DNA from: Sanghuangporus weigelae
Taxonomy: Eukaryota > Basidiomycota > Agaricomycetes > Hymenochaetales > Hymenochaetaceae
Direction of reading: 5' to 3'
NCBI GenBank assembly: GCA_033182465.1
Contig: CP137326.1
Location: 744,001-808,000 of the forward strand
Length of the DNA stretch: 64,000 nt
Below, piece after piece: positions 7,401-53,600 of this stretch (positions within the stretch are counted from its first letter, which is position 1; every line of letters begins with the position of its first letter). The notes beneath the pieces were generated by a model, which saw nothing but the letters and a program-made list of their open reading frames with translations, was not told where the DNA came from and ran no database searches. The translations under genes and the position numbers were made by a program.

Positions 7401-7692
7401 GACTCGCTCAACATGATGTATCATAAAAAAAGCAGAGGAAAGGATCGTCCGGGGTAACGACATTGATACAGGAGACATCATAGGAAAGCACTGGCGTAAA
7501 ACAGAACGAGCAGTAAGTCGTATATGCGATCTGCCTTAAAAATACAACTTTCATTGTCTTTAGACAACATCAGAATAATGGAAGACCCTTTGTTATGACT
7601 CTAGCAACGGCCACTCTTATGGGTTTCAGTGCCTAACAACGGGATCCGCAATGAGTTTCAGAAAAAAATTACGAATCACGAACGAACCGTGT
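4417..7692. other. 3.3 kb stretch without a recognisable gene
   Basis: Both strands were read. Open frames such as those at 4645-4914, 5223-5567 and 6121-6360 are short, have no family motif and do not join through plausible introns. No tRNA, LTR or terminal inverted repeat was found. This is long for a gene-dense fungal locus and may hold noncoding RNA, a decayed gene or dispersed regulatory sequence. Confidence 0.45.
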
Positions 7693-37399: not shown

Positions 37400-38606
37400 T
37401 CAAAGTGTCTTCTTGAACCAGTTAACACTCGCTTCAAATGTCTTTTCAAAACCTTCCTTGGACTCGGGAATATCAAGGTTCGGACGCGCAGCGAACCCGT
37501 GGACGGTCCCTAGAATGAGAACATACAACGTCAAACCAGCGAGGCCAGAACATCAAACCTTGCGCAAATGTGCTTCACCTTTATAATCGCAAAACTCATG
37601 TTCAACGTTCTTTTGAGAAGTCAAAATCGCCTCCGTTTCATTGCGCAGCTTTGGCGTGAAAATGGGATCCTCTGGAGAAAATGACAGAGTCGTGAGTCTG
37701 CGAAAAGACAGAGAAAACGGGATTCTTCCTTCACCTTCAGCACAGTGCCATGAAGTCGGGACCTTGAATTGTGTGATCTGCTTAGTGCTGAAGCCTCCAG
37801 GATGACAGATAACAGCTGAATTTATCAAGTCCGTGCTCGCCAGACCGATTGCCGTCACGCCTGGATAGATCAAGGCGCATTGGTAATGGGGAATAGTAGA
37901 CCTTGTCTCTACGCGTACCTCCAAAGCAATACCTAGTCGAATCATATTTGATAAGTTCAACAGTTATTGAACACAAGTTTTCGAATTTACTCACCCAACC
38001 GTGCCGATTCTCGTGTAGCCTCTTTCTTCCTTGAGTTTCTTGATAAACTAGAATACATAATAAAATAATGAACTTTCTATGCGGTATTGAAGATGTCTTG
38101 AAATACGAACTGTCTGAATTCGCTGGCTCACCACGGACGGCCGAGAAGAAATCAGACGCGGAATACGCGTTATCAAGAGCCAGATCAACCCGAGTTTTTT
38201 CAAGAGCGACATTTTCTCGCCTGGCCTTTGTGGCACTCTATCGTCCAAATCTGACACTCCCATCGGAGGCCAACCTTTGTTTAAAATCATGATTCCAATT
38301 AGATTGCTCGCCACTTATACAGACAAGTGCTTATGCAAGCTTACCGCCGAACTGGTCAGGAACCCAGACGTCGTAGCCTAAATTGTCGGCGAAACGATCA
38401 GCGACTATCTTGCTGTTCACCAACGGCAAGCCGAAGATATCTGTCAGGAGCACGATAGCCTTCTTCTTGCTGTCCGCGGGAGACTCTGATTCGGCTGTTG
38501 TTGCCTGCGACCCGGGGACGAAGTACGCGCCATCGCGCATCTCGCCCTTTGGCGTGCCAGGCAAGACATACCCGCCTTTGCAATGCTCACAGTGCTTGTA
38601 GCTCAT
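37400..38606 (-). CDS. dienelactone hydrolase family protein
   Basis: Alpha/beta hydrolase of the dienelactone hydrolase group, which opens lactones from aromatic breakdown; many fungal members have unknown substrates. The start at 38606 (MSYKHCEHCKGGYVLPG) is preferred over an ATG 17 codons upstream because it matches the usual fungal N-terminus. Blocks in order: AIVLLTDIFGLPLVNSK, ADNLGYDVWVPDQFGG, a nucleophile elbow GYCFGG with the Cys split from its neighbours by introns, INSAVICHPGG, KVPTSWHCAEGE, DPIFTPKLR with the Asp, and VHGFAARPN with the His. All triad residues are present. About 250 residues, five or six exons, tail ASVNWFKKTL. Confidence 0.9.
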
Positions 38607-39308
38607 CTTTGTGATGCGTACGTACGGGGATATGATAACGTGGGTCCTGTTATCCAAAAAGTGTATGAGAGCCTTTTATCATCTCGACCCTCGCTTACGT
38701 TTCTTCACAATGTGGGGGTCGGCAAAGGTCTTGTGATTTGCATGCGTTCCCACGGATCTCGGCAGACCTGGCAGCTTCGGAGTTTCAAAAGAGCTTACAG
38801 TGAAAATGTGTGCCTCATTCGACTCGAAATTCAGATAGGCACAATGCAAAAAGAGCCACTTTTATATATAGGTCGTATAAATTGGAAGCAAAGCAAGATA
38901 TTTACCAGAAGATTTTTGCTTATTGCAGAATATATGTGAAAATATAGGCTGTCTTGTGAAAGAAATCACATTAATGTGTCCAAAAAGTCGCCAAATAATG
39001 AAAACTTTTTGGTAGAATTATCAATATACATTCAAATAAAGCATAAATGCAAAATGGAAGGTTGTACTTTGTGCTTATGAATTATTATTTCAAATGGAAG
39101 AAATGTAGTATCGGTCCTGTGGTTCTTAACAATTAAGGAAATTGAGCCATCACGTGGTGTTGAGAAGGGGGAACGCGACAAATGTTGATCTTTGTTGATT
39201 TTCAACATTTGTCGCACAAGGGTCACCAAATGACAATAAACATGTGAGAATAATATATATTTCACATCAATAGATTGTATTCATGCTAACATATTTTTTT
39301 CAGCAAGG
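38607..39308. other. AT-rich spacer at the left edge of the accessory island
   Basis: Upstream region of the hydrolase gene, becoming strongly AT-rich after 38830. It holds two perfect inverted repeats (38980-39012 and 39175-39215) and, just before 39309, a T-run ending in CAG that could be a leader intron acceptor. It may include the terminal or promoter part of the element that follows. Confidence 0.45.
39175..39215. repeat. perfect 14-bp inverted repeat (hairpin)
   Basis: GCGACAAATGTTGA at 39175-39188 and its exact reverse complement at 39202-39215 flank a 13-nt loop. It lies 93 bp before the first ATG of the fragmented gene. Confidence 0.85.
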
Positions 39309-40302
39309 ATGAGAAGATCTAAGAAGTCAAAAGAGGTCCGTGCCGCCTGGGCGGCAGTAGCAAGGAAGAGACACACACTCGCAGACAAAACGAACTCGAA
39401 AAACAATGTATCTCCATCAATTACTGAAGCTTTGAAGAGCATCCATCAGACATGATTGATATCTGGGGCATTAGACAAGTTAGCAGACGAATTATGAACA
39501 AAGGAGCAGGAGCTTATGGAGATGCGTCGAACAAACGTCAACCAATCGGAATCAAATTGCAGCTTACAATCCTCGATTGAATCCCTGGAGAATAGGCTTG
39601 CAGATATTAGAAAAGAGCTATTTTCCATGAAAATTGCGCTTACCATTGCCAACAGACGTGTCGATGCTACCCAAACTCGGCTCACCAAGTACATGAACAG
39701 ATTTTTCAACACTCGGAAATCCCTTGAGAAGAGACAGAGCACCATTTCGAGCCTGAGACAACAGTACTCAGCACTTAGCGAAGAGACGAAACGATTACAG
39801 AGCGAACTTACCAAGAAGCAACTGGATGTACACAACTACTGAACTCGAGCAGACATGTATCTCTGGCAAATCAGTGCTGCAAATCTCCGATGGCACAATA
39901 CCTGGACTCACCTCATGTCAGCAATGAATCAGAACGATATGTTGCTAAAGAGAATGTCAATTCTCACTTTGAAGTGCAATGGGCTCGAGAAGGCACTTGA
40001 GGACTGTCGAAAAGCGAACCATAGGCGTCGTACGAGGCTTGCAAATGTGAGCAAACGATTAGAAGATCTGAAAAGGGTCAGGAACAAGGTTGCAAAGTTT
40101 TTGGAACTTACTGAGAAAGGATCCTACACTTGGCCGATCCGTTGTCTTGTAATTCGTCTACTCCTCCTCAACTGTCCACAAGAAAACATTGGCAGGGCCG
40201 TAGATGCGTTCATCGAGGCCCTATCCACTCTCCATGGAATCCGAAGGAAAAAAAGACAAATAATTTCACCTTGAACAGTCAGCCGCATTGTTAGGGAGTA
40301 GG
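39309..40302 (+). pseudogene. fragmented multi-copy family gene, piece 1 (coiled-coil N-terminal part)
   Basis: First piece of a large gene of a family I recall as repeated and unnamed in agaricomycete genomes. It starts MRRSKKSKEVRAAWAAVARK, then a long coiled coil (LENRLADIRKELFSMKIAL, LRQQYSALSEETKRLQSEL), then a helical block TEKGSYTWPIRCLVIRL with LNCPQENIGRAV, and ends at TVSRIVRE. The piece stays in one reading frame over about 990 bp but is interrupted by TGA at about 39453, 39495 and 39840 and by further stops near 40275 and 40303, unless short introns remove some. The basic helical block looks like a DNA-binding region; the family may be a DNA-transposon protein, but that is inference. 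Confidence 0.6.
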
Positions 40303-41806
40303 CCCGGGGTTACACCGGTTCGATCCTTTTGCCTAAGCAGCAGTATGTTGTGCAGAGGTGATCTTATCTACCCACGTCTGGCTGTACCACGCGGTCCCTT
40401 ACTAGCCTTCCTAGTCGCGGTCCGAATTATGGATGCTTTCAGATACGAGGTGATAGTAAAGCAGATTGGGATTTCCAAGAGGCGTGATAGTACAAAGCAC
40501 ACAGTAATAGCTCGCTGTAGGGCAAGCTTTACACCAGTGTGTTAAGAGGATCGAAAGATGGGGAAATGAGGGCCTAATCCTACAACTATTTATGCTCCCA
40601 GATATTCCATTTTCTGTCCTATTTCTTACTCATCCTGTCTCCACTTTACTCCACTTTTCTCCACCTTTCTCCACCATTACATCTGTTCCTTTGTCATCCT
40701 GCTGCGCTTTGCTCCACTTTTGCTCCAATCTTTGTAAGGTCGTCTCCACTATGACAGAATTCTGTGGAGTTGCTGACTGAGACAATAGAGGTGGTGTTCC
40801 GATGTGGAATGCTCCACTGTCAGTACTCCATAACGATGTCATTGCCGTCATTGAGTGGCATCTTTGCTCTTGGAGCGATGTAGGCTGCTCGGTATGTGAT
40901 TCTTCGGAATTCCTCTCGAGGTCCAGCGAGGGTAAGCATAACTCGCACGTCCGTGTTAAGGTGTCGGGTCGGTGTAGAGTATGGTCCAAGGCATATCATG
41001 AACTGCATAAGCTCTGCTGGCGGGTTCTGCTGGGTTCTGGTGACTAGCCATGCTTTGCCTTCATATCGTATGTCTCGAATGTAATGCCATATCCTTCGTT
41101 GTATAAGAAGTTGTAACTGCTTGGTCTCCAGGTTCGCATCTCTTGGTAAATAAAGGTTTGCCTGTATCGTAGATGCTGGACATGGTGTGTGCAACTCTGG
41201 TCTATACCATCCAATCATTCTCCAAGTTATCGGGTTCGCAGTTCGAGGGGTCCGAGTTGTGATCGTGAGTTCCTCTCGTTTCTTGGGTACTATTGGGTTT
41301 GGTAGATTGGAATGCATTGTATCTTGAAGGTGTCGCTTGGTTTCGATGTGACAGTCACGCGTACCAACTGTTGCCATGCATACTATGTAGTATACTTCAT
41401 AAAGGACCATGTAAACTCGTGCACAGACTTGACAGTGCTGAAATGCCAGTGAGGTCTCCATAAACCTTATTAGCCTTTAGCCTTTTAGCGTTTAGGCTTT
41501 AGTAGTTGTGCTTCTGGACTTCTAAGAAGTTTGATCGCTTCTTTTGATCGAGGTCGCTCTGGTTGCTTGGTCGGCGGTGTTAGAGTGGTAGTCCGCGGTA
41601 ATCGGCAGTCGGCGGTGTTAGCTGTTAGCGGGATTACGTATCCGCTTTGGTGCTTCTAGCGCTCAGGTGGTAACGGGTTACTGTTGCCTAGGCCGCTCGA
41701 TCGCTTGGGCCCGTGATAGCTGGCTTGGTTACCGGTCGCGTTTGGGAAGCTGATCGTGTAGATCTGTTGATTGCGTCAATCCTGATGTGAGTTTTTGAGC
41801 GGATCC
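40303..41806. other. unclassified interruption between pieces 1 and 2
   Basis: About 1.5 kb that does not belong to the fragmented gene. It includes a TCTCCAC-rich stretch (40635-40690), an open frame on the minus strand (40820-41461), an unusual TTTAG-rich run (41465-41505: CTTTAGCCTTTTAGCG...) and a doubled TCGGCGGTGTTAG (near 41570 and 41608). No clear terminal repeats or target duplication were found, so its edges are approximate. Confidence 0.4.
40820..41461 (-). CDS. hypothetical ORF within the interruption
   Basis: Intact 213-codon frame, starting METSLAFQHCQVCARVYM and ending DGNDIVMEY. It has a hydrophobic, Tyr/Val-rich start and a more polar middle with HIETKRHLQD, RMIGWYRPELHTP and LLIQRRIWHYIRDIRYEG. 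I do not recognise any family. Composition is protein-like (balanced Arg, Leu, Thr, Pro) and the length is well beyond chance for this region, but no intron or neighbour supports it. It may be a gene carried by the inserted element. Confidence 0.3.
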   Translation of the reverse strand: METSLAFQHCQVCARVYMVLYEVYYIVCMATVGTRDCHIETKRHLQDTMHSNLPNPIVPKKREELTITTRTPRTANPITWRMIGWYRPELHTPCPASTIQANLYLPRDANLETKQLQLLIQRRIWHYIRDIRYEGKAWLVTRTQQNPPAELMQFMICLGPYSTPTRHLNTDVRVMLTLAGPREEFRRITYRAAYIAPRAKMPLNDGNDIVMEY

Positions 41807-42052
41807 TTTCACGCATCATTTCAGAGGCTGAGATAATGTCCAAGATACAGCTTAGGCATGATCTGTGCAATGCGACGTGTAAGGCTTGCGTCTGTTTCAA
41901 GCAGGATGGTGCTGAAACTTACCTTGATAGCCGTAACAACCGGTGGAGATGGGACGACCAACAAAAACCTCAACTATGAGGTGCTTAATGTGAACCTGGA
42001 CACTGAGGAGACCTACTCCCAGTCCAGTGGAACGAGGGTGCACAGGTGCCGG
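41807..42052 (+). pseudogene. fragmented family gene, piece 2 (first Asp block)
   Basis: Contains RILSRIISEAEIMSKIQL and, in a shifted frame, GGDGTTNKNLNYE followed by VNLDTEET. The GDGTT block is a family hallmark and a candidate first catalytic Asp of an RNase H-like fold. The start of this piece repeats the theme of the end of piece 1 (TVSRIVRE versus ILSRIISEAE), so it may belong to a second copy. It stops at CCGG where an LTR begins. Confidence 0.55.
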
Positions 42053-44017
42053 TGTAGTGCACTGGCCCCTCCTGTGCCAGTACACTCATACTATGACTCC
42101 CTCCCACTACAGATACCATATCCCAGTGCTGCCTACACCTCAGAGTGTGAGGGCATACTCCTACTGCACTCAAGACACCATTTGAGCATGTTTCCACCAA
42201 TTCCAGCACATGTACTGTACTGCGGCGCCCTCCTAAGGCCCAGATCGATCCGCCGATGGCTCTCTGACACTCAGACAGGTCTGCCGACGACTCCTACCCA
42301 GCACCAGGCACTATAGGACACATCCCTCAGTGACTACAGGCTGCCGATCTTACGATTTACCGTATATACAGCCTTGCAGCAACTCTAGATGCCTCCGAGT
42401 CGGCCCCCCATGGCGCCGATTGATGCGGTGGACACTCAGACATCCTCAGGTACCTTCGCCGATGCCTCCTACAGCTTACCAAGCAGTCCCCCATTGCCTA
42501 GGGAGCTACATATAGTCATATGTGCTTATATGCCTCATTACGACGTATCTGGCGCCGATCCAGCAGTCCCCCGCAGCACCGCCGCTCCGGCCACTCATAT
42601 TAGTCACTAGAGATCGCCCACACTCTGTATTGAGTGCCGCCGACGCATCGGACACCTCAGGAACACTGACTGATGCGCCCCTTGTCTCATATACGCGATA
42701 TTAGCCTCCGATCATCGGCTCCGACATTTCCCGACTTCCCCCCGATGCGGCGGCCCCCATTAGACCATGTATGGAAGGTAGGCATGTGGTACATCGGCGT
42801 GCCAAGCCTCCGACTCGTGCTGCCGAGCCCAACTCCGCTGGCGCCTGTATTATTGCAGATACTTGATATTTCATGCTATTGAATGCCCCCCTCACATTGC
42901 CACTCTCAGATTTCACCTGGGCGCTCCGGCAGCGGCCCTTGGTGACCCAGATGACTCAGGAGATGTTGTCAGACAGTAGGACATGTCGGCGACAGCAGTA
43001 GAGTATATATAGAGCTAAGATCATCTTAGAGACCATCATCTGAGAGAGCATGTACTAGACCGAGCGCCGGAGTTCGAGATATCCCTCACTCTGAGCCTCC
43101 CCCTTGACTATATATTATCCTTGACATCTCCTCTTGCTTGATTCATCATTCTACTTGCCTTTGCCACCTCTGATACGCCTCGGCCGCTCTGACATTCAGC
43201 GAGTGTGTAGAAGCTCGGGATTTAACCCTGAGCTTCCTCCACGCCTCTTTTACCTTGTCGGCACCCCTCTATCCGACGTTGGTGACCCTTTGGTGACCCA
43301 GACTTCCTATCAGACTCCTCTGCAGCGCCCTTTCCACCCTTCCATTCTAGCTTAGTCCATATATTCATCTTGTACGGTCCTTTCCTTTCATATATCACGT
43401 TTACACTACTTCGGTGGATTCGTACAGCCTCCCCCTCATTCCTGTACCCCTCTATTTGACATTGGCGATCCTTCGGTGACCCAGGCTTCTTATCAGACTC
43501 CCCTGCGCCGTCCTTTCCAGCCTTTCACTCCAGTTTATTCCATATATTGATCTTATACGGTCTTTTCCTTTCATCTATCACGTTTACGCTACTTCGGCGG
43601 ATTCGTGCAGCCTCCCCCTCATTCCTGCTTGCCCTATTTGATGTCAGCGGCCATCTGGTGACACAGGCATCATACCAGACGACCCAGTGGTGCCTTCTCC
43701 ACCCACTTGCTCCAGTTCAGCCCTCATATTTATCTCATACGGTCCTGCCAACCCTGTGTCTGAGTTTCCACTACGTCGGCAGTCGCCTCCTGTGATCCCC
43801 CCCCTTGAGCGGCGGCCCTATTAGCCTATCCCTTTCATACTTCGGCATCCCTAAACCCCTCCATCACGTCTCCGACAGTTCCTGGCATCTGCTAGGTAGT
43901 GGGGATTTAGAGTCTGATAGCATCGGCATCCCGTTTTTGGAGGTTTCTTCATACCTTCAGCACCCTTAGTAGGACAGACATTGGTAGCACCTTCAGAGAC
44001 ACACACCACCCACTACA
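42053..44017 (+). mobile_element. solo LTR fossil 1 (LTR retrotransposon, superfamily not assigned)
   Basis: Begins TGTAG and ends CTACA. It is flanked by CCGG on the left and CTGG on the right, read as an aged 4-bp target duplication. It has a TATATATAGAG box near 43004, as expected of an LTR promoter, and no coding capacity. Its sequence matches LTR fossil 2 over almost its whole length, about 10% different by eye in the first 125 bp, mostly transitions, so not recent. The conserved blocks of the host gene meet across it. Confidence 0.75.
43191..43760 (+). repeat. 183-bp tandem array inside LTR fossil 1
   Basis: About three units; the shared word ACGGTCC/ACGGTCT recurs at 43374, 43557 and 43739 (spacing 183 and 182 bp). 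LTR fossil 2 carries about one unit here, which explains most of their length difference (1,965 versus 1,617 bp). Confidence 0.75.
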
Positions 44018-45608
44018 CTGGTTTCTTCGAGTTGGCCAGACCGCAAACCACCGGGCAGTGACGCAGAGGAAGGCTCTCATTGAGAGCCTTCATGAAGCAT
44101 TCAATGTCTACAACAGGAGCCCCTTGGCTACCACCTAGAATACCTCATGCCAAGCGCTTAACGAGGCAACTTTTGCAATGAAATATCTAGGATCCCATGG
44201 GGATCATGCCGAAGACCAGAAGGCAAAACACAAATTATTAGGAGAATGGAAGAAAGATCTTACTTTGTGGGGTGTGGGAGCGGTATATTTCGAGTCGAAA
44301 ACAGATAAAGAGAAGCAAATGCTCCTGCAAGGAGCTCGAGATGTGATAGTCCGGGAATTGGGAGGCGAGAGCATCTGGGAAGCACTCCATGGCGAAGAAA
44401 GACAAGAAAAAGAAGAAGAAATACTTACAAGAGTTTGCGAGTCACTTGGCCCCGAGGCCTTCGAGTGCCTATCCGAGTCTGAGCAGCACCGTCTGAAGAT
44501 ATGGGTGTGGGTTGGTTGTGGGATGCAAAAGGATCTAAATGCCGTAAAAGGAGGAGATTCAGCAATGAGGCAGAAATGGAAAGAGCTAGGCGTCTCACCT
44601 ATACCTCTGCCTAACAAAGATAATGCGGCTGTTCTTGAGGCACTAGACAATGGCAAGAGCAACAGCGAGGACTACGAGGAGTTCAAACAGGCAGAGGAGC
44701 CCATAAGTGAAGCTCTGAGTGTAGCAATGCTACACAGACAACGTATTGCACACGATTCTACTTACTTTGGTGAATCTGGTGCATCTGATTTGAACCGACT
44801 GCAAGGTTGCAAAGATGCATATGGCTCGAATGGTCCTGTTATGTGGTGTTGCACAGACGAATCTGGTGCATCTGATTTGAACCAATGTGTCAATGAGGTA
44901 GTAAAGTGTGCTAAGCATGTTACGAAGGGTGGAGGAATCAGGACAGGCAACTTGATGGGAAAATATTTCAGGAACAAAGACAAGAAAAAGGGTCAGCAGG
45001 ATGCTTTCAAGAACCATGGGAAGCACACGTTAGGACGTACCGTTTCGTATCCAGACACATTGAACACGTGTTATTCTTTATACCTCAAAGCTGCGGCTGT
45101 GACGATAGCGCACCCGCAGTTTTACATTGGCTACCTGGAAGATGTGAGAGACAGGAAGATAAATAGAAGATTTAATCACCTGGAATCAAACATTTACAAG
45201 GTGTTACAAGACAAATCGACACTTACCGAACTTGCCGTCCTCGCTCTGTATCAGGAAGCCGTCTCTCATTCATATATTCTTGCCGTCCGAGGTAAAGAAA
45301 ACAAGCCAAAAAATGCATTAGATCTTGGGCCACTCCACAAAAAAGTTCGTACTCATATTGCACAGCTCATTTGTGAGCTGTCCATCATCCTATCTCCGAA
45401 TGCAGACCCCGTTTGAGCAACTCTGGGAGGCCTGAAGGAATGGAAATGTCCCGAGGTGGTCAGGGAGATTCACAGGAGGGCTGGGGAATGGCCATACCTG
45501 AAGGAAATCTTTATAGCTTTTCTTCAGGGGGCCTTATCAACCTGGGAAGGGTTTAGTTCGGAGTTCCAGGATGATGGAATAATTACGGCACTTACCCAGG
45601 GGGAGCGG
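44018..45608 (+). pseudogene. fragmented family gene, piece 3 (core, with 412-codon open frame)
   Basis: Largest piece. It opens with FLRVGQTANHRAVTQRKAL and EAFNVYNRSPLA, then an open frame at 44178-45416: SHGDHAEDQKAKHKLLGEWK, an alpha-helical charged stretch, EQHRLKIWVWVGCGMQKDLN (a family hallmark with a possible second catalytic residue), LPNKDNAAVLEAL, MGKYFRNKDKKKGQQDAF, YPDTLNTCYSLYLKAAAV, STLTELAVLALYQEAVSHSY and LGPLHKKVRTHIAQL. After a TGA at 45414 the frame continues GGLKEWKCPEVVREIHRR to GERC. A 25-bp direct repeat (44772 and 44859, 87 bp apart) repeats ESGASDLN inside it. Not a known named domain to me; similarity is to uncharacterised agaricomycete repeats from memory. Confidence 0.65.
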
Positions 45609-47225
45609 TGTAGCGCACTGGTCCCTCCTGTGCCAGTACACTCATACTATGGCTCCCCCTATACTGCAGATACCATATCCCAATGCCGCCTACACCTCAG
45701 AGTATGAGGGTACACTCCTATTGCACTCAGGACATCATTTAAGCACGTATCTATTGATTCCAGCACATGTACTGTACTGCGGTGCCCTCCTATAGCCCAG
45801 ATCGATCCGCCGATGGCTCTCTGACACTTAGACAGGTCCGCCGACAGCTCCTACCCAGCACCAGGCACTATAGGACACATCCCTCAGTGACTACATGCCG
45901 CCGATCTTACGATTTACCATACGTACAGCTGTGCGGCGACTCTGGATGCCTCCAAGTTGGCCCCCCATGGCGCCAATTGATGCGGCGGACACTCAGATAT
46001 CCTCAGGTACCCTCTCCGATGCCTCCTACAGCTTACCAAGCAGTCCCCCATTGTCTAGGGAGCTATATGTTGTCATATGTGCTTATATGCCTCATTACAA
46101 TGTATCTGCCACCAGTCCGGCAGTCCCCCGCAGCACTGCCGCTCCGGCCACTCATATTAGCCACTAGGGATCGCCCACACTCTGTATTGAGTGCCACCGA
46201 TACATCGGACACCTCAGGGACATCAGCTGATGCGCCCTTTGTCTCATATACGCGATATCAGCCTCCGATCATCAGCTCTGACGTTTCCTGACTTTCCCTC
46301 AACACGGCGGCCCCCATTAGACCATGTATGGAAGGTAGGCATGTGGTACATTGGCGTGCCAAGCCTCCGACTTGCGCTGCCAAGCCCAACTCCGCTGGCG
46401 CCCATATTATTGCAGATACTTGATATTCCATGCTATTGGATGCCTCCCTCATGTTGCCGCTCTCAGATTTCATCTGAGCGCTCCGGCAGCGGCCCTTGGC
46501 GACCCAGATGACTCAGGAGATGTTGTCAGACAGTAGGACATGTCGGCGACAGCAGTAGAGTATATATAGAGCTAAGATCATCTTAGAGACCATCATCTGA
46601 GAGAGCATGTACTAGACTGAGCGCCAGAGTTCGAGATATCCCTCACTCTGAGTCTCCCCTCATGTACTGAGCCTCCCCCTTGACTATATACTATCCTTGA
46701 CATCTCCTCTTGTTTGACTCCACATTCTACTTGCCTTTGCCGCCTCCGATACGCCTCTGCCGCTCTGACATTCAGTGAGTGAGTAGGGCTCGGGATTTAA
46801 CCCTAAGCCTCCTCCCTGCACTTTATACCTGTCCGGCGCCCCTCTATTTGATGTTGGCGACCCTTTGGCGACCCAGGCGTCCTATCATACACCCCTGCGG
46901 CGCCCTTTCCAGCCTTTCACTCCAGCTTAGTCTATATATTCTTCTTATACGGTCTTTTCTCTCCATCTATTGCATTTACACTACGTCGGCAGCCCCCTGT
47001 GATCCCCCCTCTCGAGTGGTGGCCCTGGTAGCTCATTCCTTTCATCCAGCGGCATCTCTAGACCCATACATTACGTCTCTGATGGTTCCTGGCACCTGCC
47101 GGGTAGTAGGTCTTTGAGAGTCTAATAGCGTCGGCATCCTGTTTTTAGAGGTTTCTTCATACATTCAGCACCCTTAGTAGGATGGACATCTGTAGCACCT
47201 TCAGATACGACACCGCCAACCTACA
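45609..47225 (+). mobile_element. solo LTR fossil 2, same family as fossil 1
   Basis: Begins TGTAG and ends CTACA; left flank GCGG, right flank GTGG (4-bp target duplication, slightly aged). A TATATATAGAG box lies near 46561. It shares the whole layout of fossil 1 apart from fewer internal repeats. No internal retrotransposon region is present between fossils 1 and 2, since host-gene sequence lies there, so these are two solo insertions rather than one element with two LTRs. Confidence 0.75.
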
Positions 47226-47450
47226 GTGGGACTTGGCTTGGAAGCCTGCAACAAATGACGCAAACGAAGGGGCCCTTGGGGCACTTCGTCAGTTCTCGCG
47301 GTGCAAGCCTAGGGGCACGGAACTTCTATTCAATGCAATTTTTAGGTTCAGGAGGAATAAGACAGAAGAATTCAGGGATGCATTACTCACCACACCTGAG
47401 CACGAAGCATTTGTGAAGAAGGAAGCACGGTGTATGATTGATAGGGTGGG
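47226..47450 (+). pseudogene. fragmented family gene, piece 4 (NEGALG block)
   Basis: After the flanking GTGG it reads DLAWKPATNDANEGALGAL, another hallmark and a candidate catalytic Glu, then FNAIFRFRRNKTEEFRDAL and HEAFVKKEARCMIDRVG. It continues directly from the GER at the end of piece 3 (family pattern ERDLAW-PATND). It ends at GTGGG, where the next insertion starts. Confidence 0.65.
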
Positions 47451-48006
47451 TGGACGATCGAACTAGGTCTGTAGGTGCGATCCTAGCAGGCTAGGGCGTT
47501 CAATCCTATAGGGAGCGAGCGAAAATGAATTGGGGAAACCAAACAAAGAAGGGTGATCCGGAAGACTCCCCTGAGATAGACCGAGACTCTGGCCTACTCT
47601 GTAGGAACCGAGGATAGTCGTAATACCTCCAGCCGGAACGGTCGGTGTGAACTATCTAAAAAGGGAAGCAAAGGGGGAGCGAATACATGTAGGCAAGATG
47701 TGATACTCAATGGTCATCTAGGGAGACCAATCCGGATGTGCTGCGGTGAACCGAGTGAATACTTCGGCGACTTGATCACCTCAGAGATGAGTCGATGAAG
47801 AAAGAAGACAAGCTGAGAGTATCCGAGTCACCCCCGGGACGTCTGGACTAGTCTAGACAAGGAAGACGAGACACCCAAGGCGGGTACTACGGCTTTCTAT
47901 AAATGACAGAGTCGGTCAGGACGGTCTGAGAGGCTTTGAAACAGAAGATGTGTGCGCTGAACAGATCTCTGGTATTCGCTATCTGAAAACTACGACATCT
48001 GGGCGG

Positions 48007-49346
48007 TGTAGTGCGCCGCACTTGCCTGTACCGGTACGTCGGTACAGGCCCCTCAGTACTCCGTACAGTATACCATCGTGCGGCGACCGCTACACCTCCG
48101 CCGCTCCTTAAGACCTTCCAAACCGCCGCTCCTTGATTCGCGGCTCAACCAATACGTCCGCCGCCTCCCGTCCTTCGAAGACTTCCCAAACCGAGTATGC
48201 TTGGCCAGCCGCACTTTCTGATACGCGGGCGCCGGGAACGTTGCAGCGGATGTATCGGCTACGGCGGCGGAAGGATATCAAACCGTATAGCCGATGGAAT
48301 ATTCGTTGGCTCCTGTTGATTGGCTTATCCGACGTCAGGTAGTGGTTTTACAAGGTCCGAGGTACCACGTTTCATGTTCATACCATGCTGCTTCGTGCGC
48401 CAAGTCCGATTGTCGGACGCGGCGGCCACTCGCGTATTCCCCTTTTAGTATTATTGCCTCCCCTGATGTTTCATATTCGTGTGGTGCAACCACTTAGCGA
48501 TCCGAACGCGCCCGATGATGATGCGCCGCGCCAATCACCGCCAGCCCGATCAGCGCGCGCTCGTGTCTTGGCAGCTTCGCGGCGCGCCCCGATCTTTGGG
48601 TCCGCACTGATTGCGCGCCTGTGACGCGCAGTCACTGTCGCCGTCTCTGTGACGCTCTTCCCCAGCATTCCCCAGTATATATAGACCTCATGTATGTAGT
48701 GTTCAGAAGCAGTAGTTCAGAATAGATCTCAGTGCACTCCTCTCGTCTCTGTTAGCCCCTTTTGCTCTCCATCGCCTTCGCCGAAGACCGTGTGCCGACA
48801 CAAGACGCCGCCCCCGTTTAAGGGAATAACAGGGGCACGTGCTCACTCGCCACTGCGCAAGTGATTGGTAGAGCTATCCCCCGTCCTGGGAATAGGCAGC
48901 GCCATCGCCCTCTTGACAATCGGCGACACCGTCGCTCTCCTGGTAATCGGCGACACCGTCGCTCTCCTGGTAATCGGCGGCACCGTCGCTCTACTAGTAA
49001 TCGCCGCCGCTCGCAGGACTCGACAGCGCCGTCGCTCTACTACTTATTCGCGACGCCGACATCTTGACTCGTCGGCGGCTCTGTCCCGTACATTATCGGC
49101 GGCACCCCCTCTATACGCAGATCATACCATAGCCCTTACAATTGAGCTCTCCCCACGACTGAGCGCGCATCCCGATCGGCAGCAGTGCTTCCGGGTCAAA
49201 TTGTCCGCCACGGCACCGAGCTGTCCAGGAGGTTTAGCCACGAGTTGGATCCCTTCTTACCTCTCTGATCTTTGACACCGCCGACGCCTCTCTGTGGTCG
49301 AACGCCGTCGCCTTCGCCGCTGCTTAAGAGGGTCTGATAGTCTACA
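48007..49346 (+). mobile_element. LTR fossil 3, nested; related ends to fossils 1 and 2
   Basis: Begins TGTAGTGC and ends CTACA like fossils 1 and 2, and is flanked by a perfect GCGG on both sides (48003-48006, 49347-49350). A TATATATAGACC box lies at about 48675. The body is GC-rich and differs strongly from fossils 1 and 2, so it is a separate subfamily. It lies inside the TG...CA insertion and is therefore younger than that insertion. Confidence 0.7.
48918..49010 (+). repeat. 27-bp tandem array inside LTR fossil 3
   Basis: Units start AATCGGCG(A/G)CACCGTCGC at 48918, 48945 and 48972, with a partial fourth at 48999; spacing is exactly 27 bp. Confidence 0.85.
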
Positions 49347-49457
49347 GCGGGTTTTATAGACTATGGGGGTCCAAAACATGTACAAAACGACTAATCTGGG
49401 ACTGGGATAGGATCGTGACAAGACGTAAGGTGAAACGTAATAAAACCACAACAAGGA

Positions 49458-49664
49458 GTGTGAAACCGACAAGACAGAAGTCTAGTGGACTACAGGAAAC
49501 TGTGAAACAGGATGAAATCATAGCAAGGAGTGTGAAACTGACGCGATAAGGGTCAGACGGACTGCAAGAGACTGTGAAAGAAGATGAAATCATGGCAAGG
49601 AGTGTGAAACTGACGCGATAAGGGTCAGACGGACTGCAAGGAACTGTGAAACAACATGAAAACT
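49458..49664 (+). repeat. 72-bp tandem array in the TG...CA insertion
   Basis: Units start GTGTGAAAC(C/T)GAC at 49458, 49530 and 49602, exact 72-bp spacing, about 2.9 copies; units 2 and 3 are nearly identical. Confidence 0.85.
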
Positions 49665-50311
49665 GTCCAGGAAGGGTCCTCTGAACCGCACAACCAAGTC
49701 GGTGAACAAACCGGATGGAGAGATCGAATGGATGTACCAATCGGCGAACTCCGATCGGAAGTCTGAACCTCGGAGGCCACTTCGGCAAAGTCCAAACAAT
49801 GGAGTGCACCTTGTGGAACATTTAGGATGAAGGTACGCAACCATTGGGTACCTCGAAACAGGTCGGAATGGTCCCTGGCGGTGTGAAACGCTGATGAGAA
49901 GGCCTAGGGTCCCTTCAGGAGTCTGGGTCCAGGCTTTGGAGTGCCGATATCTGCTCAGATGACTGAGGCGGAGGTCAGCGAGTGGTAGTGTGACAAAGTA
50001 TGAACAACGAAATATGGCGTGGCGCCTATCATGCAGTATTAGCAGGTCTTCGGGGTCTCGGAATGTGACATATGTGCAATGGAAGGTGAAATGGGGTGAG
50101 CCAAGATATGTACGAAGTCTCAGGCGCGTCCTAAGGTATGGCGGAGCGCTCGGAAGGATCGAATCGAGTCGTATACACCCTTTGTGACTGTTGGAGTCAC
50201 TCAGGCAGCTGATACACCAGTGTGTTGGACACTGGTGAAGTATGTACAATACTCGACCGCTGACGCCCAGAATAGCAGTGTGCGCTACAATGGCTCCTTC
50301 AAGCCAGTGGG

Positions 50312-50635
50312 AAGGAAAGAAAATGGGTTAGAGAGATTTTCGAGGAGGGCCAGGCCGAACTTGCTGAAAAGTGGCGCAGGATCACGGTGCGAGACAAAAG
50401 AAAGAAAGTAAAAGTGAATCGACTAAAGTTAGTGATACTTGAGACGAACGAAGAGCGAATAGGAAAAATGAACGTACCTCAGCTCAAAGAACAGCTCAAC
50501 AAACTTCGCGACATGAAGTACGTATTACTCAAGTTGACGAAGCTAACATGGAAGGACCAGATGAAGGAGGAACTCCTGAAGGCACTGAGGCTTGGGAAAC
50601 CCAGAGATACTGAGGAGACAGACGATGAAATTTAG
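50312..50635 (+). pseudogene. fragmented family gene, piece 5 (C-terminal part)
   Basis: In one frame: KERKWVREIFEEGQAELAEK, RDKRKKVKVNRLKLVI, then NVPQLKEQLNKLRDMKYV, LTWKDQMKEELLKAL and an acidic end DTEETDDEI with a stop at 50635. A basic helix followed by a SAP-like VPQLKEQL motif is the usual C-terminus of this family as I recall it. Piece 4 and this piece are one base out of frame with each other. Confidence 0.6.
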
Positions 50636-53600
50636 ATGAATCGTCATACAAAGAAAGATGTGATTGTGTGTCCACATGAGTGTGTGTCTGGATGCAAGTA
50701 TTAGAGTCCGGGATGTTTAGAAGCACCATGTACAATTCAAATCTGTCGATAGTATCATTATGTGTCATGATAATATGATCGATCTTCCCACCAGAGTGTG
50801 TCGTGTAATAGCCCCCGAGATAGCGGTCAAAGGTTCTGAGCACCTAAGAAAAGCCGAAAACTTTGATTTCAAAAGTTGTTTCTGCAGTATGAACCGTGAC
50901 CTCTCTAAAAAGTACGCCAGTCGAATGACCGGATGGCGGAATTAGCGAGAAACAGCATGGAAGAATAGATCAGTAACTTACCACTGGAAAACAAAATATG
51001 ATCAATTGTCATACGTGCATTCATTTTCCCGGCACAAGAGGCACTGAGACTGGTTGTGGGCAATATAGAATGCTCAAACCTTGCGCAGCTCAGTCTGATA
51101 CCGAGTATGATTTCTTAGTTCATTTTGGCATTTATGTGCAGTTTTTTTTGACTTGATACTAGATTGGACAAATATATTCCATTTTCGTACAAAAAGAGGC
51201 CTGGAGCCTCATTGCGTGAGTGAGATGCAGCATATTATGAAAAGAGAGGAACATTGTAAAGTTCAGCTACGTGATGTCGTGCTGAGAGTGGACTTGTGAA
51301 TAAATTCTACAGTGCTCTCACAGAGTCAACCGGTCTATTTGTCTAGACAGGTAGTCTTTCCTGTTGTTTGTTTAGCTAGGGGCAACTAATTCTTAGACTG
51401 CGTATGATATTGTTCCGTTAGGTAAGTAATGGAAGTTGATATGGATGATTTTGAGGTGACAACGTATGATAGGTGTGATTCGCTGATAAGAGTTCTGAAC
51501 TCAAACTTAATACGTACTAGGTTCTAGAAGCAGCACAGTAGTGGTTCTAGCAACCTCCCTTATCGTTATCGGTCCTAGTAGCAACGCTCTTCGCAGTACT
51601 AGCAACCACACTTATTCTTAACAGGTACTAACAGCAAACACTAAAGTAGTGTTAGCTACCTGTGCAATGACGTATCTGAGTGATATGCTGATGTCAAATA
51701 AACCACAATACTAATATTCAGCAAGGGTGGGTACAAACAAGCACCTGACTTGAGTGCACTGCGCTAAACAATGACAAACACTTCTGTGTGCTTGCAAATC
51801 TAGGGTACTGAACAGTAATGAAGTAACAGTAATTAACACCTTAGCTTTATTACCGACTGCCTAATTTGTACAGCAGTAACAAAAATTAACACTTTACTTA
51901 GACTTATGACACAAACTAACAAACTGGAGAGAGATGGTGGTGGTTAAAGGTCAAGTTGCTCTCTCTCTTGGCGTGCTCACTCGCCCGCCTTATATAGGCT
52001 GAGCTTACTAAACATTATTAAGCATTACAAAGCAAGGCCAAGAAAATAAACTAAAAATAGGACTTAAATGCACTTGCTTATATAAGAAAAATTAGGTTCA
52101 ACCTTCCTAATATAGAATCTGATTTCCATCTCGGCTTCTTGTCCTGCAAGTCCAAAGCTCATATCCCTTTATGGTATCCTAACAAAGCTTGGACTGCCTC
52201 CTGATTAGGTCATGACACATGCCTAAGCATTGACTCATTGTAACGTAGTTGTTGATAGGGAGTCTGAATTGTCTTGCACAAATCTAAGCTCATACCCTCA
52301 ATTCTGGTGCGCATTATCGGTCTGCTTCAGGTCAATAAGCGATTTGAATACCTCTGAACGGGGACCTTAAAGAAGCTTGTCAGACCCTGTATGGCTTAGA
52401 CTAATTCAGTATAAATTATATATGAGTGACGGCGTAGTCTCCTTAATCCGTATCTTCTCAAAATGCCTTCTTGCAACCCTTTTGCATGCCTTTCACACAT
52501 GTGGTGCTGCATGAAGAAGGTGTTGAGGTTAATTTGTAGGCCTTGTCGGATCACCATTAAACAGTTACAGTAAGTGTCAGCATTGATATCCAAGTTGATT
52601 TATCCTGATGTGGTATTAGAATCATGATTGAGATGACTATTACGACTAGGGTAGAGTCGCTTTTTTTGGTGATTTCGCATTGCTATCACCCTACGCTTAT
52701 CTGGTATGGGCTTCTGTCATTATGCTCATGATTTTCTTTTCTGATCGCATTGGTAGAGCACTTACGAATGAGCTAAATCTGAGTTTAAAGGATTTATATG
52801 TCGCATCCCGTAGAGCTATTGCTTGATAATAATAACTGATGCTATGCTATTCCTGCTTGTTTATGTCCAGGCAATTTCATAGCCTGACAGCGAGATACCG
52901 TATTAGGTGAGATATTCTAACTCCAACTCAAATCATGCGTACGTGCGGACCATAGGCTTTGCCGATCCCCATAATCACAATGCATTTTAGAGCCGGATGC
53001 GCTTGGGATCTTAGATACAATTAGAATATGCGCTGCATGAGGACCTCTGATAATTCCGCTAAGGGGCAGATCCAATCAATCCACATATAATTTTCAGAAA
53101 TTTTGGGCTAAGGCTAGAGGAAATCCACACATTTTGAGCCAAAATCTGGGAAAAGGCCTGAGGAGTGATCCACAAATGTTGACGAGAAATTTTGTAGGCC
53201 TGAGGTCATCATCCGAGCTGAATCAGGCCGAGTCAGCATAATTTGAGGCATATGAATCGCACATGACCGTGATGTATATTAAACATTGATAGTAATGCAA
53301 TTGAATCAAAATCTACTCATATTTAGAAAAGCCGGGAAGGAACTGAATTGTATCAATTACAATTATAAATATTCGTTATTTTTTTGAAAATAAATCCCAG
53401 ATAGGCCTGATCCGAAATCCACATATTTTTGCGGCCTGAGCCAATCCACATATATTGTATACGGCCCAGCCTGGCCTCAGGCCTATATTGGCATAATCAG
53501 GGGTCCAGCTGCATGCAATGAAGATGAAGATCAGTACAGTCATTAACCGGTCCTTTGAACACCTATTACAGATCCACTTTTATAGCTCACCATGTAACAC

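Follow-up and report, generated by a model that had tools for sequence, protein, structure and literature searches.

What kind of gene lies in five separate pieces between positions 39309 and 50635 of a 64,000-nt stretch of the Sanghuangporus weigelae genome (assembly GCA_033182465.1, contig CP137326.1, positions 744,001 to 808,000)? The whole stretch is called the window below, and coordinates of the locus are those of the window. The first-pass annotation ascribed the pieces to an unnamed repeated protein family and guessed at an undescribed DNA transposon or a domesticated relative of one. The window copy is very probably a decayed autonomous class II (cut-and-paste) transposon with terminal inverted repeats (TIRs), whose single recognised protein (about 1,100 residues) would be its transposase.

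Gene pieces and family members

The genome searched was the window's own (33.9 Mb, 13 contigs). A protein search with the longest window piece gave 26 matches, which were grouped into approximately 12 gene-bearing loci (C7:2042 kb and C7:2058-2061 kb being counted as parts of one element). About five additional fragments (C11:37 kb, C8:1136 kb, C9:1676 kb, C8:1665 kb, C4:739 kb) were found with exon products of two other copies as queries. The family is repeated, as the first-pass annotation had assumed.

In the copy L031 (C1:2.86 Mb) exon 1 is open; a GT-AG intron of 51 nt separates it from exon 2, whose frame stays open over about 747 codons. This element is compact (4,604 bp). Its TIR, TGGGGGTCGGCAATGG, starts at position 2867 of L031, the reverse complement ends at 7470, and the 7-bp duplication CAACAAA stands on both flanks. 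L034 likewise contains long open frames. Judged by these sequences, the family is autonomous in at least one copy.

The products of the two L031 exons were used as separate tblastn queries against the window. They recover five pieces, collinear and all on the plus strand: 39309-40298 (exon 1, 37% identity, four stops, E-value 2e-56), 41930-42025 (exon 2, 66%, 6e-6), 44022-45626 (exon 2, 47%, two stops, 6e-152), 47230-47451 (exon 2, 66%, 1e-23) and 50309-50587 (35%, 2e-9), the last in an open frame extending to 50635. The five pieces are one gene, in order, disrupted by insertions and stops. The earlier reading of their order is recovered here, and the sequence blocks it quoted are present in the window.

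L030 is about 94% identical to L031, and the alignment is confined to positions 2864-7468 of L031, stopping at the TIRs. Among the 232 substitutions, 163 are C-to-T or G-to-A, and 121 of these 163 are at CpG. Such decay fits what is expected of a methylated, silenced copy. The region C7:2034500-2063900 (L081, L040, L035, L082) contains a copy whose left part, including exon 1, is apparently inverted, judging from strands and ends.

Termini and target site duplications

Five loci were scanned for TIRs without any motif, the sole assumption being a 14-bp inverted repeat in the gene's vicinity. TIRs with matching 7-bp flanks occur at L031 (CAACAAA, 7/7), L033 (TTGTTAA, 7/7) and L034 (6/7). L033, from a different subfamily than L031, has ends of the same type. 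The scan also listed further inverted matches whose flanks do not agree. The TIR pattern with one mismatch allowed has 50 matches in the genome, versus 15 for the reversed pattern. The ends start with TGG, except for L034, which starts with GTGG.

Target site duplications (TSDs) were compared in 15 elements with both ends found, eight gene-bearing and seven non-coding (six of the 1.0-kb family described below and L064); L036, L037, L038 and L039, for which no end pair was identified, are outside this set. The 7-bp flanks are identical in 6/15 elements and agree in at least six of seven positions in 9/15. Among 210 non-partner flank pairs, used as the control, not one reached 6/7. Exact 8-bp flanks occur in 0/15.

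With TIRs at both ends, a TSD of constant length, and dispersed copies together with derivatives having the same ends, this is a real class II TIR DNA transposon family. The first-pass annotation had proposed looking for terminal repeats and target duplications around intact copies, and several copies have both (exact 7-bp flanks in six of the 15). Its guess of a DNA transposon was right as to class, given the TIRs, the TSDs and the multi-copy state.

Non-coding derivatives

The genome has 20 matches to a non-coding repeat of 1,036 bp; three, counting the query itself, span its full length. Positions 593-1036 of the repeat correspond to the left end of the C7 element and lie there upstream of the exon 1 match (identity 78% for 593-998, 94% for 987-1036), and positions 1-300 match the right end of the same element (71%). 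The C7 element carries transposase fragments. Since both ends of the repeat match both ends of the C7 copy, the 1.0-kb family is an internal-deletion derivative of a transposase-bearing copy, as miniature inverted-repeat transposable elements (MITEs) usually are.

The 201-bp stretches L044, L050, L051, L053, L054, L055, L056, L057 and L059 start with the same kind of terminus. Because more sequences share this terminus type, several further non-autonomous families probably exist.

Candidate transposase

Conservation was counted over all copies covering each position, including decayed ones. The Asp of GDGTT (D7), the NH of NHR and the Asp of HGDHAED (D106) are each conserved in 11/11 copies, as is the Cys of the CxxH motif (C211). 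Its His (H214) is conserved in 10/11, the sole miss being the window copy, which reads CGMQ (His replaced by Gln). The Glu of NEGALG (E564) is present in 12/12. Approximately 99 residues separate the two Asp, and 350 separate CxxH from Glu. These residues support a candidate D-D-[CxxH]-E signature, in which the acidic ones would be catalytic. According to a passage of one paper, a CxxH or DxxH motif follows the second Asp in hAT, Kolobok, P and MuDR transposases (PMC3706591).

The acidic triad of the first-pass annotation consisted of the Asp of GDGTT, the Asp of KDLN and the Glu of NEGAL. Its outer members stand, being invariant. The KDLN Asp is conserved in 10/11 copies and was rejected as the middle catalytic residue because L033 has Glu there. 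The second catalytic Asp is better placed in HGDHAED, and the KDLN block carries the CxxH motif (GCGMHKDLN).

The ratio of nonsynonymous to synonymous substitution rates (dN/dS) is about 0.19, 0.18, 0.17 and 0.12 in four between-copy comparisons, with dS above 1, near saturation, which makes these values rough. Such values suggest that the protein was kept functional during the spread of the copies.

The predicted protein begins with a basic N-terminus and a long coiled coil, continues with a helical block that probably binds DNA or dimerises, and then has a split catalytic core. The candidate core would comprise, in order, GDGTT (first Asp), NHR, HGDHAED (second Asp), GCGMHK (CxxH), a long helical insertion, NEGALG (Glu) and a basic tail. 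An AlphaFold2 model was built from an alignment whose 35 rows are fragments taken from a single genome (mean predicted local distance difference test score, pLDDT, 67.5; predicted template modelling score 0.47). Its confident regions are most of 350-530, 120-200 and the helical tail. The regions of the catalytic motifs score low (pLDDT 31-43 over the first 60 residues, below 50 over 93-109, 208-224 and 549-570), so that the model speaks neither for nor against an RNase H fold. In this model, the segment inserted between CxxH and Glu consists entirely of helices.

Proposed mechanism and alternative explanations

The transposase would bind the TGGKGRTCGGCAATG-type ends and excise the element, and insertion by 7-base staggered cuts would produce the 7-bp TSDs. 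The same protein could mobilise the short deletion derivatives in trans. We infer RNase H-type chemistry, the domain roles given above, the cut-and-paste mode and the mobilisation in trans.

Several observations weigh against an autonomous cut-and-paste transposon. Six of the 15 elements fall below 6/7 in the flank comparison. The flanks of L030 and of two 1.0-kb copies are unmatched, those of L064 match only once the right boundary is moved, and in the window and C7 copies the duplication is displaced by 3 and 1 bases, respectively. The L034 boundary was set from the motif-free scan's own match, and three 1.0-kb copies, interrupted by later insertions, were counted on the assumption that the halves of each form one element. 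In the motif-free scan, L030 had TIRs and L036 one match, both with unmatched flanks. The AlphaFold2 model has no assigned strand and does not display an RNase H core, the core being of low confidence, and the dN/dS values suffer from the near-saturation mentioned above. No transposase model is among the Pfam matches listed for the window pieces and exon products (E<=1) or for 20 catalytic and C-terminal pieces (E<=10); the list for one coiled-coil piece holds 25 of 75 weak matches, and the HMMER filters drop most matches above approximately 0.1. A sequence search of PDB gave no meaningful match. Finally, no transposition was observed.

A host gene family or a domesticated transposase, with the surrounding repeats there by coincidence, would account for the long open frames of L031 and L034 and for the low dN/dS. 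This explanation is very improbable: L031, L029 and L033 contradict it through their ends and TSDs. Several copies have TIRs with matching 7-bp flanks, non-coding deletion derivatives share the same ends, and the CpG decay of L030 fits a mobile, silenced element. A single-copy host gene was rejected: the first-pass annotation would have given up the transposon for single-copy homologues without terminal repeats, and the copies are multiple and several have TIRs. Nor is the domesticated relative that it offered as the other possibility favoured, given that ends and duplications have been kept.

There remains the superfamily of the transposon. The best reading places the family, with its 7-bp duplications, in the CxxH group (hAT/P/MuDR/Kolobok-like), where it may be either a new superfamily or a very divergent hAT. 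The chances are about even that it represents an undescribed cut-and-paste superfamily of Agaricomycetes, known from one genome, with TGGKGRTCGGCAATG-type ends, 7-bp TSDs, a coiled-coil D-D-[CxxH]-E transposase of about 1,100 residues with a helical insertion of its own, and both autonomous copies and MITE families. The main rival is a very divergent hAT branch having 7-bp rather than 8-bp duplications, as hAT7 has, and a dimerisation domain altered beyond recognition; we consider it a substantial possibility, though a somewhat lesser one. It is the main rival because the motif string is closest to that superfamily: the order DG.T, H.AE, D.A.N, C..H.LN, PAT....E is reminiscent of it, and so is the all-helical insertion between CxxH and Glu. 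However, the TIR starts with TGG and not with the YAR of hAT, and no hAT model is among the Pfam matches listed in the searches described above. The sole genome match to PF05699 (hAT) is at another locus. hAT7 families with 7-bp TSDs do exist in rust fungi (Pucciniomycetes), according to part of one report (PMC12730594). A divergent hAT is compatible with the proposed mechanism, since the latter leaves the superfamily open.

Membership in some other known superfamily (P, MuDR, Kolobok, KDZ, Dada or Merlin) is unlikely. The CxxH group includes P, MuDR and Kolobok, and long TSDs are in line with such membership, but the TSDs of Kolobok (TTAA) and MuDR (8-10 bp) differ, and the Pfam matches listed include no transposase model. 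PF18758 (KDZ) has three genome matches, all at other loci; KDZ transposase fragments lie at C5:1872413-1873171 and C7:2635275-2635891. The open frames around the PF05699 and PF18758 loci have no significant similarity to the family (few copies, in this genome only). In the part of the source that describes them, KDZ2 and KDZ3 of Cryptococcus have TSDs of 4-8 bp (PMC12810828), so the 7-bp length alone is compatible with KDZ; given these values and the 7 bp of hAT7, TSD length alone decides nothing. Dada, as described in a passage of PMC3706591, lacks TIRs and is targeted to small RNA genes.

For a new superfamily, a passage on Repbase practice is relevant: transposases that fail to converge in PSI-BLAST are treated there as separate superfamilies (PMC4455052). 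Bacterial/archaeal and viral contigs were scanned once each with two short peptide patterns, and none of the 155 and 35 pattern-matching stretches, respectively, is a relative; distant relatives could be missed by patterns so short and few. No description of the family was recognised among the open-access papers listed in literature searches, and a search there for the protein's motifs in print gave none.

Structure of the window copy

The extent of 39309-50635 given by the first-pass annotation holds for the gene pieces; the element is wider, its ends being at 38713 and 52971. The features of the copy are as follows.

38713-52971, plus strand: decayed copy of the transposon from one TIR to the other, containing nested insertions (pattern search, ends placed exactly)
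38705-38712: target duplication TCACAATG, left copy (identical 8-mer on both flanks)
52975-52982: target duplication TCACAATG, right copy, 3 bases (TAA) past the TIR
38713-38760, plus strand: left terminal region TGGGGGTCGGCAAAGG...GCGTTCCCACGG (76% identity to the L031 left end, 112 bp)
52924-52971, minus strand: right terminal region, reverse complement TGGGGATCGGCAAAGCC...
39309-40288, plus strand: exon 1, basic at its start, then with a coiled coil and a helical block that may bind DNA; four stops (tblastn)
40289-41811: solo long terminal repeat (LTR) insertion (TG...CA), with the 5-bp duplication CGCAT at 40284-40288 and 41812-41816 (boundaries read directly)
41817-41878, plus strand: end of exon 1 (read by eye against L031)
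41879-41930, plus strand: predicted GT-AG intron, 52 nt, its position shared with the 51-nt intron of L031
41931-42025, plus strand: exon 2 piece with the first Asp (GGDGTTN) (tblastn)
42026-44021: insertion related to 45627-47229, approximate boundaries
44022-45626, plus strand: exon 2 piece with NHR, HGDHAED (second Asp), GCGMQKDLN (CxxH site, His to Gln), the helical insert and two stops
45627-47229: second insertion, same repeat as 42026-44021, approximate boundaries
47230-47451, plus strand: exon 2 piece carrying the Glu motif, PATNDANEGALG (tblastn)
47452-50308: further insertion or insertions, approximate boundaries (gap between matched pieces)
50309-50635, plus strand: basic C-terminal tail with SAP-like helix block
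51276-52884: insertion in the 3' untranslated part, approximate boundaries (splits a stretch continuous in L052)

The segments 51250-51275 and 52885-52971 match the end of L052 in a by-eye comparison, supporting the right boundary; 51276-52884 is considered an insertion because the same stretch is uninterrupted in that separate copy. A 1-kb query covering part of the solo LTR gave at least 45 genome matches, including the window, with 90-100% identity. The related repeats 42026-44021 and 45627-47229 sit in the same gene, 3.2-3.6 kb apart.

A 91-codon open frame at 38334-38606 on the minus strand matches the dienelactone hydrolase family (PF01738, E-value 8e-5). The left end of the element, at 38713, is about 107 bp upstream of the start of this frame, and hence the element may sit in the promoter of a dienelactone hydrolase-like gene.

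Comparison with known systems

An anonymous repeated fungal protein is here linked to a mobile element with defined ends, a TSD length, active-site candidates and an open-frame copy. If such proteins are indeed widespread among mushroom-forming fungi, the family would account for many of their "hypothetical proteins" and unclassified repeats and would extend the known range of cut-and-paste transposon lineages. It would likewise provide an origin for fungal MITEs that have 7-bp duplications.

hAT elements resemble the family in having TIRs, a possible 7-bp TSD, CxxH after the second Asp and a helical insertion before the Glu. They have a BED finger, the Glu motif ERxFS, TIRs starting with YARNG and TSDs of 8 bp (5-8 in variants, a range that takes in the 7 bp seen here). 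The family has NEGALG in place of ERxFS, a long N-terminal coiled coil in place of the BED finger, TIRs starting with TGG, and neither the dimerisation domain PF05699 nor another hAT model among the Pfam matches listed.

The P superfamily, including THAP9, also belongs to the CxxH group, with a coiled coil upstream of a split catalytic core, a large helical insertion and TSDs of 8 bp. The family shares this architecture, whereas its TSD is 7 bp, its TIR is unrelated, and neither a THAP domain nor a transposase is among the Pfam matches listed. KDZ (Kyakuja-Dileera-Zisupton) elements are found in fungi, this genome included, and have a large transposase and TSDs of 8 bp, or 4-8 bp in some Cryptococcus families as partly described in the source cited above; PF18758 was not found in the family, which has no significant similarity to the KDZ copies of this genome. 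Dada is in the CxxH or DxxH group and has TSDs of 6-7 bp. Unlike the family, it lacks TIRs, and it has zinc fingers and targets snRNA and tRNA genes, according to the same passage as above (PMC3706591).

The derivatives resemble, when compared by description, Abr1 of Agaricus bisporus, a short non-coding element with TIRs and, reportedly, 7-bp TSDs. An element homologous to Abr1 is called hAT-type in a passage of one paper (PMC10051438).

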